The notes under the pieces are model-generated. The model made no database searches, was not told the DNA's origin, and saw only the letters and a program-made list of their open reading frames with translations. Source: Anastrepha obliqua (lineage: Eukaryota; Arthropoda; Insecta; Diptera; Tephritidae). Taken from it: 64,000 nt of DNA. The stretch lies in assembly GCF_027943255.1 (NCBI RefSeq), contig NC_072894.1, positions 62,127,601-62,191,600 of the forward strand, in the 5' to 3' direction. Shown in pieces: positions 3,248-55,007 of this stretch (position 1 is the first letter of the stretch; every line of letters begins with the position of its first letter). The position numbers and the translations under genes are program-made.

Positions 3248-3412
3248 TGGCCTACGGCGATCTTTTTCTGCGCATCAGCTGTCTTATACTCTGTATAATA
3301 CTCCGTATTGTATATTATGTAGTGTGAACTGTTATACGTACAGCAAGCGTTTAATAATTTATTTGCAAAATTTATTATAAAATAAGTGGTCTAGTTGTGA
3401 TAAAGTGTTGTC

Positions 3413-4977
3413 ATGGAAACGGAGGAACCGGAAAAAAACAAATTAAGTTGTTTTATTTGTAAGAAAAGTGAGGGGAAATTAATATTGCTTTCTGAAGAGA
3501 CATTAAAGAAGTGCCGAACTGTTTTGAAAGTCAGAAAAAAACACAACCTTAAATATGCGAATGTTATTTTGCCTGATGAATATACAGATGGAGGTTATCA
3601 CCGGGAATGCCATAAAACATTCACAGGCGTTAATAAACAGTACTACAATTCGGAGCCTGCAGATTTAAAAAAGAAAAAAAGAGTAAACAAAGAGTCGATT
3701 AGTGTAGACAATTTATCTCCAGATACACCGATAGTACCTGAGTTCACTACCGAACTCGCAACAAAATCTCCAACATCATCAGAACAAAATTTATATTCTG
3801 AATTGATAAAGCTCCAGCCTTCAACCTCCACAGAACAATCTCATTTACCGCCTCAACATACAGAACCTTCAACAATTTCACAATCGACTTTAGCTAATGA
3901 ATCAGAGGTCTTACAATCGACAAGTTATCAAAAAAATGGTGACATTAGTACACCAGATGTTACTGAAGTAAACAATGTAATTGAGGACGTAAATACTCAA
4001 CCCGAAAATGTTGTCAGTAGTAATGACTCTCTGATTGTTTGTATATTTTGTAATAAACAGAAGAAGAAAGTGCGCTCAAAAATGCTTCCACTTCATGCAG
4101 CTGAAACAAACCAATTTACAGGTAGTATTTTTTCTAACATTGAAGGTTTAGAAGAATATAACGAGTTTTCAACTACATTGAATAATTACTCTGCTCCAAA
4201 AATATAATATTATACTGATTGTCGAGTTCATTTTAACAATGATGGAGAATCCATTTGCCGAAACTTGCCTGGTTTCCACGCAATAACAGGGTACGATTAC
4301 AATCCGGCATTATTTAGAAAGGGAAAACTAAGACCTTACAAACTATTAAAAAAAAACGATGAATTCTAAAAAGCTTTTATAAAGTTCGGCGAAAATAAGT
4401 TAATAGAGGACAGCAGTGAACAGAAGAACATTTTCAATAGTATTCAGAAATATATATGCAGTGTATATAATGTTCGGAATGCAATTGATGTCAATTCTGC
4501 TCGAGTTCAGATGTTTATAGACTCATACAAAGTTTCCGACATTAATGAGGCTTTCAATCGAAAAAAATTGAGAAACTTTGATGCTAGCAGTTTACCACCT
4601 TGTGAAAATGAGCTACTACAACATTTTTTACGAGCTAATTATATTTGTACGATTTGGAACAATGCTCACTTAAGAAAACCTACTTCACATAAACCTGAAA
4701 ATAATGGCTGGGTACTGGAAAATGATCAATACCATTTTAAATGGTTTGAAGGAGATCAGCTACCTACTTATGTCAGTGATTCTCTACAAGCTTTGTCAGG
4801 TATGTTATAATGTTCACTGTTTATGAAGAAATTATCAACCATTCATAATTATTCTAGCTTGCTTTAATTATTACAGATGCTGATGAAGACGATGACATTC
4901 ATGAGGACAAATCCGCAGAATGGAGTAGCGGTGATGAAGATAATCGAGATACCGACGAGGACGATGAAGTTGATTAA
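3413..4977 (+). pseudogene. Broken gene of the 3.1-kb transposon (zinc-binding N-terminus, acidic C-terminus)
   Basis: One frame runs from ATG 3413 to 4799, interrupted only by TAA at 4205-4207 and TAA at 4367-4369. A 77-bp GT-AG intron (4800-4876) then joins, in frame, to a last exon ending at TAA 4975-4977. The N-terminal segment has CFICKKSE ... GYHRECHKTFTGV (C-x2-C plus H-x3-C, zinc-finger-like), followed by a Ser/Thr/Pro-rich linker and a second C-x2-C (VCIFCNKQ). After the first stop come LPGFHAITGYD, SSLPPCENELLQHFLRANY and GDQLPTYVSDSL, which I recall from uncharacterised insect and cnidarian repeat-borne proteins. The last exon is strongly acidic (DADEDDDIHEDKSAEWSSGD). The central region seems deleted. 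No function is assigned. Confidence 0.75.
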
Positions 4978-13080: not shown

Positions 13081-13247
13081 AGCGGTCGCCCTTGGGCAGG
13101 CAATGAGAAACCTCCGGGTGTATTTCTACCAGGAAAAAGCTGGTCATAAAAACTATCTGCCAGTCGGAGTCGGCTTAAGACTGCAGGTCTCTCCACAAAT
13201 AGGAGGAGGAGTTCGACCAAACACCCAAAAATGGTATAAGCGCTAAT
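13081..13247 (+). repeat. tRNA-derived SINE, 5'-truncated copy interrupted by a mariner
   Basis: SINE body (AGCGGTCGCCCTTGGGCAGG, TCGGAGTCGGCTTAAGACTG, GGAGTTCGACCAAACACCC) down to the tail start GCGCTAATA. The mariner at 13249-14459 lies in the tail; TA sequences flank it on both sides. Confidence 0.85.
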
Positions 13248-13248
13248 A

Positions 13249-14459
13249 GGAGGTGTGTTAAAAAAATAAGGAGAATTTTGATTATTTACAAAAAAATATT
13301 TATTTACCTATCAATTTCTATTTTATATTATATCTTTCAAAGTAATCCCCCTCAAATATAATACGCTTGTGTCAGTTTTTTTCAGACTTCGAAGCAATTC
13401 AGATATGCACTTTATGGTATGTTCTTGAGCTCTCTCAGCGATGAGGTTTTTATATCCTAAATCGCCGCAAAACGCCGCCCTTTCATTGGTCTCTTCAATC
13501 TTAGGAGCAGGAAAAAGGAAAGGCGACAAATCTGATGAATATGATGGCTGAGGCATGATAACGGTGTTGTTTTTGGCCAAATCATCTTTCACAAACAAAG
13601 GAAGGGAGCAGGTGCATTGTTATAATGCAAAAGCCATGGTTTTTCTCCACAATTCCGGGCGTATTTTTCGTACTGCTTTACGCAAATGGCGCATAACTTC
13701 AAGGTAATACTTCTTATAAGACTACATAAGACCTTATGGTAAGAACTCCTGATGCACTACGCCATGGTTATTGAAGAAAACAGTGAGCCAAACCTTGACC
13801 TCCTAGACTCTTCCATTGGACGATTGGGCTTTTATTTGCATGTCGTAAGCATGTACCCATATACCCCTGATTCGTCACCAGTTTTGATATGAGTTTTAAG
13901 CAAATCTGAATCATAGTTAACGTCATTCAACAAATGCTGAGCGATGCTCATTCGACGTTGTTTTTGGTCAAAATTCAACAATTTTGGAACGAACTTCGCT
14001 TCCATTCGCTTCCGAAAAGATTGCATGGGACGAGCCAAACGTATGCCGACATCCTTAGCAACTTCTGTAATTTTCTTCACTTTCTCAACATTTTCATCGG
14101 TTGTTGATGTGCTAGGGCGTCCAGAGCGAGTATCGTCATTCACATTTTCTCGACCTTCTGTTAAGAGGTTGTACCACTTATAAGCATGTTTTTGACTTAG
14201 AGTACTTTCACCGTATGCCTATGTCAACATCTCAAGAGTTTTTGAGCACTTAACTCCATTTTTTACACAAAATTTGATCCAACTTCTTTGATCCATTTCT
14301 TTCGATAGCAGAAAATCGCCGAACACGCAAAACTTTTCACTTATTTATGCCACTCACAATCAAACTAAACCTGCTATATTGCTAAAATCATGAACATTTC
14401 TTCGAGACGAGTGTATCAACATAAAATAAACAAAAAAATTATTTTTTGAACACACCTCG
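13249..14459 (-). mobile_element. Mariner, nearly full length (1211 bp), inactive
   Basis: Terminal repeats GGAGGTGTGTTAAAAAAAT and CGAGGTGTGTTCAAAAAAT (outer strands), flanked by TA on both sides. The minus-strand transposase is decayed: SGRPSTSTTDENVEKVKKI, FVPKLLNFDQKQRRMSIAQ, HIKTGDESGVYGY (catalytic region) and, out of frame, LAKNNTVIMPQPSYSSDLSP. Same family as the mariner at 50776-53862. Confidence 0.88.
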
Positions 14460-19431: not shown

Positions 19432-19575
19432 TACATGTGGCTGCACTACACAATCGCCGTCAGCGTGTTAATGTTAATCAATTTCGCTTAGTGTATTTAT
19501 ACCATGTATTTCCGCTTAAACTACAGTTACCCATGCATCTTTTGGATTACATACTCGAGCGATATACATACGCAC

Positions 19576-19577
<2 letters not shown>

Positions 19578-19606
<29 letters not shown>
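19578..19606. repeat. TATG microsatellite beside a dynein splice donor
   Basis: About seven TATG units, ending some 5 bases from the GTGAGT donor of the 19618-20040 exon. Confidence 0.9.
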
Positions 19607-19617
19607 TTTTTACTCAC

Positions 19618-20040
19618 TCGCGATACCAATATGCCCAAACACATCACCAATGAGATGACAAGCTTATCCTTCTCGAAAAGCGATCGACAAACATTTTGAT
19701 AAATTGATTTCGTAAAGTAATAATTCAAATGCTCTAAACGCTCTTCGAGCACAGTCGATTTGGGCGCCTTCTGTATGGCATTTACGAAGAGATTGAGAAA
19801 CCAGGCCAAGGAGTATTGATACATTGGATCGATGTTAGCCAGTTCACTGATGCAGAAGAATAGTATGGCGGAATGTTTAGCCACCGGTACGTATTGTTGG
19901 CGTGCGGCATCAATTTCCGTTTCGGTTGCTACAGCAATTACTTGCTTTTCCTGAATTTCCTCTGATAATATTTTACTCGATGACAGTATGTTGATAGCGT
20001 TTTCGTCCTCTAACACATTGCCCTCCGAGGAGGAGAGTAC
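19618..20040 (-). CDS. Dynein heavy chain exon: AAA6, last exon seen
   Basis: A 423-bp exon starting VLSSSEGNVLEDENAINILS and ending NVCRSLFEKDKLVISLVMCL and GILVSR. ILSSSKxLSEEIxEKQ, LANIDPMYQYSL and the NVCRSLFEKDKL box are diagnostic. Acceptor TTCACAG at 20041-20047. The donor is a perfect GTGAGT at 19612-19617, directly followed by a TATG microsatellite. I cannot find the next exon (the remainder of AAA6 and the C-terminal domain, several hundred residues) anywhere in 1-19617, so it is beyond the window, lost, or in exons I missed. Confidence 0.95.
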
Positions 20041-20529
20041 CTGTGAAGGAGGTGAAGGAAAATGATTACAATGAGTAGTGCAGAGTTAAGTTGAGGTTAA
20101 ATACGAACGTATGCATCTATGTATGTATATAAAAGTGGCACAGCATGTGGCTTGTGTGGCTTGGGGGCGGCCGCTGGGGTACTCTTACCTTAGATATATT
20201 ATATAATAACTATGTTTGTTAGCCTGTTTGTTTTGTTGATAGATGAGTTGGTAAACTTGAGTTTAGCAAACATTGAGGTATAGTGAAGCTGTTTAGTATG
20301 ATATACATATATACATATAGATATGTGTGTGTAACGTCGGCTTGAACACATTCGGTATATCTTATGAGGTGAGCTAATGTTATATAAATATGTACTACAG
20401 ATCGAATTATTGTATTTATTCTTGGTCTACTATAACTTTTTTCGAATTAACAGATACTCTCATTGTTAAAAAAATGCGACTACAACCTTGTATTTTTGTA
20501 GCTCTATACTGAACTTCTATTCAATAGTT

Positions 20530-50770: not shown

Positions 50771-51573
50771 ACATACGAGGTGTGTTCAAAAAGTATCGCG
50801 TATTTTGAATTTTCGCAGATTACATATATTCGAATTTCGATTTTTTTGTGACCATATATTGGTACTCATGCCTCTCACTCATGCCGACCAGTTCGACCAT
50901 TTTGAATGTTCAGTTGCTTTGCTTGCACGTGTTTCGGCTCGTTTTCGATGTTTATCTATTCAAAAAGATGAATCAAGGAACCTGTGTCAAATTTTGTGTG
51001 AAAAACGAAATTAAGTTCCCGGATGCATTCCGAATGTTGACTGAGTCATATGTTCAACAACAGACGAAGAAATTTATGAAGTGAAGAAAATGGTATTGGC
51101 CAATCGTCAAATCACCGTTAGAGAAGTTGCTGAGGACCTAGATATATCGATTGGCTTGTGCCATTCGATTCGTTGGTTTATGGCTATGACGTGGAAACCA
51201 AAGCTCAATCATCTCAATGGAAGTGCCGCACGAACCAAGACCGAAAAAAGCGCGTCAAGTTCGGTCGAATGTAAAAGTTTTCCTTACCTTTTTCTTTGAT
51301 TGCAGGGGCGTTGTGCATCACGCGTTCTTGCCACAGGGTAAAACGGTCAATAAGGAATATTACCTGCAAGTTATGCGCAATTTGCGCGAAGCAATCCGCC
51401 AGAAACTTCCGGATTTGTGGAAGAAGAAATATTTCTCACACATCGTTGCTTGTGTGCGACTTTTTGGCCAAAAACAACACACTAATGAAACCACAGCCAC
51501 CGTATTCCCCAGATCTGGCCCCCTGTGACTTTTTCTTGTTCCCGAAACTGAAGAGGCCCATGAAAGAACGACG

Positions 51574-51612
51574 CACAGTGGGCACTTTTCATGTAGACTG
51601 CGGCCATAAATC
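51574..51612 (+). repeat. Left Transib end, 23-spaced RSS-like
   Basis: Heptamer CACAGTG 51574-51580, spacer 51581-51603 (23 bp), 9-mer CCATAAATC 51604-51612, matching the classical nonamer ACAAAAACC at 6 of 9 positions. Confidence 0.8.
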
Positions 51613-52204
51613 AATTTTTTTCACATCGTTCGATTTCCATGAAATTTTCAAAATTTATTAACAACTAATTAAGAATTGTTGTTTTAAAATTTTAGACCAT
51701 AATCTTTATTATTTTTCTGTACACAGTATGTCAAAGTTAAGGTATGACAACATACTTGAAATATGGGAGTTCAAAGTGCTATATTTGAATGCTTGTTATT
51801 TACATATGAAACATCACACAACATTTCTAAAAATGCAATTCGTAAGAACCATTTTTCTTTATTAAAAATTACAAAAAAAAAAAAAAATAAATTCCTAAAA
51901 AATGGAAAAAAGTTGCATGTAGCATATATACAGCCCAAAAAAATGAACATTTATCATTTTCAAAGGACTAGAAAATATATTGCACCGCTGAGCACCGCAT
52001 TAAGACTTATATCAAATTAAAGCTTGAAAATTCAGCTAAAAGTTAAAGAAAACAAGACATAGCACAGCTTAGCACAGCGATTTATACACAACAAAAACCA
52101 CAAACAACCATGCGCGAAATTCACACTGCGCGCTATGCATATGTTTACGTGCAATAGTCGGAGCGAGTCTTGTCGCCAAAGCGAGTGGTGGGAGAGTAAA
52201 TAGA

Positions 52205-53190
52205 ATGAATTATGAAATTCAAAATTTGAAAAATTCTGAAATTGAGGTGTTTAATAGGAAATTTACAATATCACATAGTTTAGCGATGACGATGATAGAT
52301 GGGAAAGTTGCTACAACTGTTAGTAAAAGTTCCTCTATGGCAGTTTGTTTTATATGTGGAGCAAAGCCCACTGAAATGAACGATTTAAATGCTGTGATTT
52401 TAAGAGAAAATTCAGCTGAATCTTTGAAATTTGGAATTTCTCCGCTTCATGCGAGAATTAAATTTATGGAGTGTATTTTGCACATCGCATATAATAAAAA
52501 TTTTGCAGCATGGAGGACAAATGAACATACAAAAGATCAGAAGGAAGAAACTAAAAAAGAAATTCAAAGAAATTTTAGATCAGCACTGGGATTAAAAGTT
52601 GATATTGTTAAGCAGGGTATGGGTACAACCAATGATGGAAATGTTTCTCGAAGATTTTTTGAAAATCCAGAAACAACGGCTGACATAACTGGTGTTAATA
52701 AAAATTTAATTCACCGATTTAAAATTATTTTAAATACCATAAATAGTAGGAAACCTATAGATACCAACAAGTTCCACGTCTATTGCATGGACACTGCAAA
52801 ATTATATGTAGAACTTTATGCGTGGTATTATATGCCCATTACTGTACATAAAGTTTTGATTCATGGCAGTAAAATTGTATCTGAGGCTATATTGCCAATA
52901 GGTATGTTTTCTTGCTATATTATTGTTTGATAAATGTTTATATTTAATCACAACTATTAATATTTTGTTTTACAGGAATGTTATCTGAAGAAGCTCATGA
53001 AGCCATGAATAAGAATTACAGAAACTGTCGGAAATTTCATTTGCGTAAAAGTTCCCGCATTTCTACGAATGAAGATGTGATGCATCATCTTCAAATATCA
53101 TCTGATCCATATATTAATTCATTTAGAACAAAATTGCAGTTAAAGAAATTGGAATACCATGATGATGTAAAAAATTTATTAAAAGATTGA
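52205..53190 (+). pseudogene. Transib transposase, C-terminal half (RAG1-core related)
   Basis: Two exons, 52205 to about 52901 and about 52977-53190, with a short GT-AG intron (GTATGT ... TTTACAG) that joins ILPIG to MLSEEAHEAMNK in frame. Visible landmarks: IDGKVATT, zinc-type CFICGA, ISPLHARIKFMECILHIAY, GMGTTNDGNVSRRFF, the His pair in MPITVHKVLIHG, and SEEAHEAMNKNYRNCRKFH, which parallels the catalytic-Glu segment of RAG1 (EGNESGNKLFRRFRK). It totals roughly 303 codons, about half the usual length: the N-terminal part with the first catalytic Asp is absent. The position I would align with the RAG1 LHCD Asp is LHAR here. Probably inactive as a transposase, though the frame itself is open. 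Confidence 0.85.
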
Positions 53191-53611
53191 AAAAAAAAAA
53201 AATTTTATTGCAGTACTATGAAAAGTAGGCGTAAAAATGGTAGGAATAATTTGAAATTCACACCAAATATTGAAAACTTTTTAAAACGTAAATGTACCAA
53301 ATTTTAAAGTGTGACCTAAAATTGTATGCCAGTTAGAGCATTTTTTAAGTTAGTATTGTATGGGAGGTGGTCGTAAGAGGGGGCAGATTTTTACAAAATT
53401 ATTACCCAATATTAGGAATTACACAAAATACAAGTATACAAAATTTTGTTATTTTTTTTTTAATTTTATGGAAGTTATGGCTACTTTATTGTTAAGGTTG
53501 TGTGGGAGGTAGGCGTAAAAGTGGGCGGATTTTTTTGATTTTTTAACTAGAAGTTTAAAATGTCTTAAAAGTGATTTCTGCAAATTTTCAAAGTTCTAGA
53601 ACGACTCCTTG

Positions 53612-53639
53612 TATTTTTGGCCGCTGTGGCACCACTGTG
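53612..53639 (-). repeat. Right Transib end, 12-spaced RSS-like
   Basis: On the minus strand: heptamer CACAGTG 53639-53633, spacer 53632-53621 (12 bp), 9-mer CCAAAAATA 53620-53612, 6 of 9 matches to ACAAAAACC. Confidence 0.8.
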
Positions 53640-53862
53640 CGACGCTACGCTACAATTGGCGAGATAAAGACGGCATCGAAGGAGAAGTTAAACAAGATAA
53701 AAAAATGATTTTTTGAAGTGCTTCGAAGGTTGGGAAAAACGTTGCCGCAAGTGCATAATATCTCATTGGGATTACTTTGAATGGGACAAAATAGATATTA
53801 ATGAATAAATGAATAATTTTTGAATAAACACAAAATTCGCGATACTTTTTAAACACACCTCG

Positions 53863-54386
53863 TATGACGCCATTTGCAAAAATTATACATTTTCCGATAC
53901 GATGGCTAATTTTGTGCCACCTTATAGTTTCAATATACTTACACGTATAACGTGCATTTTCATGACAGGTGGGGTACTTTGTATTATTAGAACTTTTAAA
54001 ATAACAGTCTAAACAGTGTTTTCAGCTTACTGAAAAATTGCGCTTTTGCAGATAGAGACTAGTGATTATATTTCCTTTATATGTTATTGAACAAATAAAT
54101 AGGTTTAAATTTTTTGTAAATTTTTCACAATAATTAGGTAGAAACTGTTTTTAATATTTTAGAAACCAAAAGCCGCACCCAATTTTTGTTGTTTTTGTTT
54201 TAGTGCTATTATCTTTTTCCACCGGGCTTGGGTTATGATATTTATATACGACTTGACAAATGTTTTGGCTGGTTTTTGCGCTTTAACACGCTAGCGGCAG
54301 CAACCCAAAAGTAAATTGCAGTGGAAACGTTATATGATGTGCCTCGACTTCAATAGAAATAAATATTTTATACAAAATTTATGATT
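53863..54386. other. Dynein intron, unassigned part
   Basis: Nothing recognised. Confidence 0.4.
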
Positions 54387-54395
54387 CACACTTAC

Positions 54396-54941
54396 TTCTC
54401 TCTGATTTTTTTCATATTCGCCGGCGGTATATTATCTTTATCGAATGTTTTTAATGATTCCAGAAATTTCATATCGCCTATCATACGCATTGATGGTCCC
54501 CAAAAGTCCTCCACCATACGGCCGCTTGGATCTGGTTTGCGATCCGGTTTAAAACCTCTTAACACACAAACTGCCTCCAATGTTAACTTTACTGCGTATG
54601 GAGGATTTTTCATCGACTTAACAATGAATATATCAGCCGGCTTAAGAGTATTCAGCGCCTCTAAAGCTGCTTCTAGTGCTGGTATTGCCTCAGCCAAATC
54701 ACTTTCGCAGTCATCTTTAATAGCTTGAGCAGCGGCAGCTGCCTCATTGGCTGCAGCTTCATCTGCGCCAACAACTTCCTTCTTCTTCTCGGCCTCCGCC
54801 GTTTCACGTTCAATATTTACCATAATACGTTCCGTCTCCTCGGAAAGCACTTTCAATTTCGGTTGCAAGTCGTAAAGATTCGCCTGCATTTCACCCACCT
54901 GACCCGCTGCAAAGTCCAATTTCTCTAAGCCGGTGGTGTAG
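54396..54941 (-). CDS. Dynein heavy chain exon: stalk coiled coil 1 and first half of the microtubule-binding domain
   Basis: The largest exon (546 bp). It starts YTTGLEKLDFAAGQV, continues through the alanine- and glutamate-rich first stalk helix (NEAAAAAQAIKDDCESDLAE), then LNTLKPADIFIVKSMKNPP and LRGFKPDRKPDPSG, MVEDFWGPS, FDKDNIPPANMKKIREK. These are the hallmark residues at the stalk tip, which touches the microtubule. Donor GTAAGTGTG at 54387-54395. The 4.8-kb intron that follows contains a mariner with a Transib inside it. Confidence 0.96.
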
Positions 54942-55007
54942 CTTCAGAGTAGGTAAATATATGTAGTTAAAAAAATAAATCAAGTACAATTGCAAGCACA
55001 CCCTCAC

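Follow-up and report, generated by a model that had tools for sequence, protein, structure and literature searches.

In the 64,000-nt stretch of DNA analysed here (the window), a mariner element extends from position 50772 to position 53866. It was recognized by a PF01359 match and by its terminal repeats (50772–50807 and 53831–53866), and it carries within it a 2,066-bp Transib element, a transposon whose kind is related to RAG1, the recombinase of antibody genes. The Transib copy is bordered on both sides by CGACG (51569–51573 on the left, 53640–53644 on the right), a GC-rich 5-bp target-site duplication that was identified by comparing the flanks and, for the left copy, also by alignment with a paralogous mariner. 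This paralogue, at 13598–13246, showed 69% identity to the recipient mariner in a 357-column alignment that contained 12 gap positions; it was gap-free in a 60-column block spanning the rejoined junction when CGACG was counted once, and represents the empty site. Where the related mariner copies at 13246–13763 and 50772–53866 could be aligned, they were about 69–75% identical, the second being the one that holds the Transib. Within the 64,000-nt window, no further copies of the Transib element were found.

Beyond the mariner, a dynein exon was found on the minus strand at 54395–54943 (PF12777, MT stalk, 70.7 bits), and a putative dynein exon on the same strand at 19519–20085 (PF12781, AAA_9, 19.4 bits, below the cut-off of 27.4). 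Some 34 kb of DNA, with transposons in it, separates the two dynein heavy-chain exons; this suggests a dynein gene with giant introns and, from its position, suggests that the Transib region lies inside a large dynein intron. Fly Y-linked dynein genes have giant introns. At the other end of the window, a 267-codon open frame (3404–4207, plus strand) gave no Pfam hit and only four relatives; the ORF at 3413–4204 matched an uncharacterized protein of Anastrepha obliqua (98% identity over 48% of the length) and a second protein (99% identity over 80% of the length), which points to Anastrepha, or a near relative of it, as the probable host.

The transposase remnant

The initial annotation had assigned the element to Transib, and a transposase match bears this out. 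The ORF aligned with the HzTransib transposase (PDB 6PQN) at 290 bits (E 9.5e-86) over chain residues 196–470, that is, over the C-terminal half only. At an E value of 1e-3, 152 related proteins were obtained, and among the 120 of these matches that were listed, every relative named by organism came from an insect. The best full-length named relative was a 594-aa Stomoxys calcitrans protein (66% identity over its residues 290–592), and a Rhagoletis zephyria fragment showed 75% identity over 163 residues. A 570-aa Transib relative, P0133, was 77% identical over 247 residues and occurred in 38 contigs, which points to a possible high-copy family. Protein-based scans of viral contigs and genome contigs gave no relative. 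DNA-pattern scans returned 47 stretches in viral contigs and at least 117 in genome contigs, 80 of the latter being listed; judging by their IMG/VR and prokaryotic titles, these were taken as chance matches.

The coding remnant is split in two. Exon 1 (52175–52901, plus strand), delimited by tblastn and by the HzTransib match, contains an ATG at 52205; it is followed by a predicted 74-bp GT-AG intron (52902–52975), supported by homology on both flanks, and by exon 2 (52976–53190), which holds a conserved LSEEAxE segment and then a stop codon. When spliced, 52205–52901 and 52976–53190 gave a frame of 303 codons plus stop with no premature stop. We used 13 full or partial relatives as tblastn queries, 10 against the window and 3 against the element. 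All 13 aligned up to 52903–52927, with a start at 52175 or 52196 that varied with the relative, and 11 of them aligned again from 52975 on. Upstream, no significant match to the N-terminal half of the transposase was obtained with these 13 queries, the remaining matches having E values of at least 0.5.

Of the 134 relatives that were 450 aa or longer, 132 carried the motif KWGxD; none of the six reading frames of the element contained WGxD. Since the N-terminal half and WGxD are both missing, the Transib copy is a deletion derivative and non-autonomous; it retains the CxxC and C-terminal parts. No Pfam model scored above its cut-off on the ORF pieces; RAG1 (PF12940) reached 11.7 bits on exon 2, below its cut-off of 25. 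The catalytic residues of HzTransib are given as D126, D225 and E436 in PMC6941560. In the 6PQN alignment, chain residues D208 (MIDGK) and E419 (LSEEASE) were both conserved in the window protein; with a constant numbering shift of 17, they would correspond to D225 and E436, and the counterpart of D126 would fall in the N-terminal region for which no match was obtained. With its DDE site incomplete, the copy is non-autonomous, which does not bar its membership of the Transib superfamily. Judged by its sequence, it is an internal-deletion derivative, a point missing from the initial annotation. Because the first half of the transposase gene is gone, movement would probably depend on transposase supplied in trans by a full-length relative. 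In the 3' non-coding part of the element, a 73-nt direct repeat was also noticed (53320–53392 and 53462–53534; 73% identical, 142 bp apart).

In P elements, deletion products of the KP type repress their family. By analogy, the truncated ORF could yield a protein that binds the Transib ends, does not cut them and represses the family. The spliced frame, open from ATG 52205 across its GT-AG intron, and the retained CxxC and C-terminal parts would suit such a product; however, an open frame is also expected of a young copy, and the N-terminal half is gone. An equivalent of the nonamer-binding domain is reported for both Transib subgroups in PMC9435367. In RAG1 this domain spans residues 389–464, at the start of the core, according to PMC6941560, and by the RAG1 order its Transib equivalent would sit in the missing part. 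We consider a repressor function unlikely.

Terminal sequences and their spacing

Both ends of the element begin with CACAGTG (51574–51580, plus strand; 53633–53639, minus strand), as read directly from the sequence. The terminal inverted repeats thus start with CAC and resemble the RSS heptamer, as in the Transib superfamily. We used the V(D)J nonamer ACAAAAACC as a yardstick for the 9-mers that follow. On the left, a 23-bp interval (51581–51603, plus strand) separates the heptamer from the nonamer-like CCATAAATC (51604–51612, plus strand); on the right, a 12-bp interval (53621–53632, minus strand) separates it from the nonamer-like CCAAAAATA (53612–53620, minus strand). Each 9-mer agreed with the yardstick at 6 of 9 positions. 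Re-reading and scoring therefore returned the heptamers, distances and matches that the initial annotation had given, and the copy carries a heptamer and a nonamer-like 9-mer at 12 and 23 bp, within a tolerance of ±1 bp.

When offsets 0–59 from the heptamer were scored, offset 23 was the sole site on the left with at least 5/9 matches. On the right, 6/9 was reached at offset 12 and equally at offsets 14 and 51. A shift of the paired 9-mers by one base lowered the matches to 4 + 5, compared with 6 + 6 in the 12/23 register.

The two ends also share an inner block. The sequence CGGCCAWAAAT, proposed earlier as common to both ends, was indeed present at each, but the true block is longer: it extends over 15 bp (ACWGCGGCCAWAAAT), of which 13 are identical between the left copy ACTGCGGCCATAAAT (51597–51611, plus strand) and the right copy ACAGCGGCCAAAAAT (53613–53627, minus strand). 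It is also referred to as the GCGGCCAWAAAT block. The block starts 16 bp past the left heptamer and 5 bp past the right one, and therefore lies 11 bp deeper on the left, a displacement of about one helical turn. Its most conserved letters, GCGGCC, stand mostly ahead of the 9-mer. Since GCGGCC falls within what would be the spacer of a V(D)J-style signal, the 11-bp offset of the block is the only feature here that is independent of the RSS analogy.

We estimated how often such a pair arises by chance. When the two end sequences were subjected to dinucleotide shuffling, 6 of 20,000 shuffles contained an exact 12/23 pair, in either orientation, with 6/9 matches or more on both sides, and 60 of 20,000 contained such a pair with a spacing tolerance of ±1 bp. 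A product estimate, drawn from 123,510 positions of the window that lie beyond the element, gave 8.7e-4 for the exact pair and 5.6e-3 for ±1 bp. Shuffling gave a shared block with at least 12/14 matches in 9 of 3,000 cases and one with at least 10/11 in 40 of 3,000; because both 9-mers have bases in common with the block, the 9-mer and block statistics are not independent. The heptamer by itself is common: CACAGTG occurs 7 times in the window (4.0 expected), a count reached in 13 of 100 shuffles. The window was also scanned for RSS-like sites that start with CAC and have a spacer of 11–13 or 22–24 bp. Seven site-and-spacing combinations scored at least 13/16, compared with 2.21 expected in shuffles; two were the Transib ends, one was internal to the element, and four lay elsewhere in the window. 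The 12/23 arrangement is thus unlikely to have arisen by chance, yet the figures are not overwhelming for a single copy.

These data bear on a simpler account, in which the ends form an ordinary imperfect terminal inverted repeat that acquired an 11- or 12-bp indel in this single copy or in a recent lineage, the 12/23 spacing being coincidental and without function. When the ends were aligned globally, a gap of 12 bases and another of 1 base sufficed to unite the shared blocks, which is consistent with it. So are the four other window sites that equal the Transib ends in RSS-yardstick score, and the statement in PMC8289069 that the majority of Transib families are symmetric. Against it, the joint register with the highest score is exactly 12 and 23, a result that shuffling seldom reproduced (the 6 of 20,000 above), and the same asymmetry is listed for five other dipteran Transib families in PMC8355894. 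We regard the indel account as possible, though doubtful.

The internal RSS-like site

The internal site found in the scan, CACAGCG-11 bp-ACAAAAACC (52073–52099, plus strand), scored 15/16, the top RSS-like score of the entire window, and has the orientation of a left end. A score of at least 15 was seen in 1 of 3,000 element shuffles and in 3 of 300 window shuffles. Four GCACMGC motifs (51982, 51992, 52062 and 52072; 51982–52078, plus strand) form two pairs, with 10 bp within a pair and 80 bp between pairs, and the site overlaps the last of them. Four such motifs within 120 bp occurred in 0 of 2,000 element shuffles. The window total is ordinary (9 motifs, 5.70 expected; 10 of 100 shuffles reached 9), so that the clustering alone is unusual. 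As the GCACMGC motif and the 52073 site were picked after being seen, these counts are suggestive only. The right end likewise contains CACAGTG and CACAGCG 11 bp apart (CACAGCG at 53628, minus strand).

We considered what the site might represent. It was rejected as the scar of the internal deletion, since coding homology resumes at 52175–52196, 102–123 bp away, and not at the heptamer edge. As the true left end of the element it was disfavoured, the five bases ahead of it being CTTAG and not a match for CGACG. A composite of two Transib ends may also be envisaged, in which 52073 was an older left end and the left 499 bp were added later. The score and left-end orientation of the site, and the recurrence of CACAGCG in the inner right end, would agree with such a history. 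However, it is the outer end that fits CGACG, the coding homology begins only 102–123 bp further in, and the site was spotted post hoc; we judge the composite highly improbable. On another proposal, the fly Transib family would obey a real 12/23 rule, with a transposase that joins 12-type ends to 23-type ends exclusively, and 52073 would be a third, near-perfect 12-type signal, ending a helically phased array, to which transposase binds for regulation or in generating deletions. This proposal seems to us quite improbable. The site merits a closer look.

Related elements and a proposed mechanism

The initial annotation had read the locus as a Transib with 12/23-like unequal ends, and that reading stands; its suggestion that the arrangement would bear on the age of the 12/23 rule loses its novelty, as 12/23-asymmetric insect Transibs (PMC8355894) and asymmetric Transib ends in general (PMC9435367) are already in print. 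PMC8355894 (2021) lists 12/23-asymmetric ends, within ±1 bp, for Drosophila melanogaster Transib5 and for Anopheles gambiae Transib2, N1, N2 and N3, giving Kapitonov and Jurka 2005 as the source of the list. In PMC9435367 (2022), asymmetric ends are described for every Transib of Subgroup I and for some of those in Subgroup II, and the asymmetry is treated there as an ancestral, inherited trait. A full-text search for Transib and Anastrepha together gave no earlier report of a Transib family in Anastrepha; the mention of Anastrepha that it returned concerned another element. The present copy is likely one more example of the published unequal-end insect Transibs.

Transib5 and the A. gambiae elements resemble it closely in layout, being insect Transibs with a heptamer and a nonamer-like 9-mer at 12 and 23 bp (±1 bp) according to PMC8355894. 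The likeness is one of published spacing, and the element here differs in being an internal deletion. Its unequal-end layout is the design of these published Transibs, and unequal spacing may be needed for its activity. HzTransib of Helicoverpa zea shares the C-terminal half of the transposase (the 290-bit match to 6PQN) and a 5-bp target duplication, GCTCG in its case (PMC1852546), but its ends are described as symmetric and as bearing little if any resemblance to the nonamer (PMC8289069), and it has a whole transposase that cuts DNA in vitro by nick and hairpin (PMC6941560). Amphioxus ProtoRAG has unequal ends with an outer CAC and a conserved inner element, and asymmetric pairs are reported to perform better there (PMC8289069); it differs in its 27/31-bp spacers, the asymmetry with which it works best (PMC8289069), and in also encoding a RAG2-like protein. 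Its inner element, GCCATCTTG, matched the block by eye at 5/9 positions on the left and 4/9 on the right, and ProtoRAG TR5 was thus disfavoured as a model for the inner block relative to the nonamer, with 6 and 6. Subgroup I Transibs and AanRAGL likewise have asymmetric ends, AanRAGL with 4/13-bp spacers (PMC9435367). At the sequence level, the element resembles the V(D)J 12RSS/23RSS pair in its exact consensus heptamer and its 12/23 distances; it differs in its 6/9 nonamers, in spacer letters that are conserved between the ends, and in the absence of RAG2.

Taken with the insertion data, these comparisons make it quite probable, in our view, that the locus holds a 2,066-bp Transib that entered a mariner, is flanked by CGACG, no longer has the first half of the transposase gene, has unequal ends and likely moved only with the transposase of a full-length relative. 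Counted against this explanation were the single copy, nonamers of only 6/9, the right-end offsets 14 and 51 that equal offset 12, and the four other window sites with the same 13/16 total as the Transib ends, as well as the placement of GCGGCC in the would-be spacer and the statements of PMC8289069 on symmetric Transib families and on HzTransib. In the mechanism that we propose, each end would be bound by a full-length Transib transposase at its heptamer and its inner block, the block probably being contacted by the N-terminal part of the enzyme. The transposase would pair the short end with the long end, cleave by nick and hairpin at the edge of the CAC in the manner of HzTransib, and insert the element into GC-rich target DNA with a 5-bp stagger. 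The 11-bp difference would place the inner block on the same helix face at both ends and could let the enzyme distinguish left from right.

Should living Transib families prove to have a fixed 12/23 spacing and to need it, the rule of antibody-gene assembly would require neither RAG2 nor vertebrates, and would be open to testing in flies. Because D. melanogaster Transib1 is reported to have spread in 2013–2016 (PMC12230796), a laboratory fly system is at hand. The copy described here adds a likely tephritid case with a clean duplication and an exactly readable inner block, which make it a good target for an excision assay.
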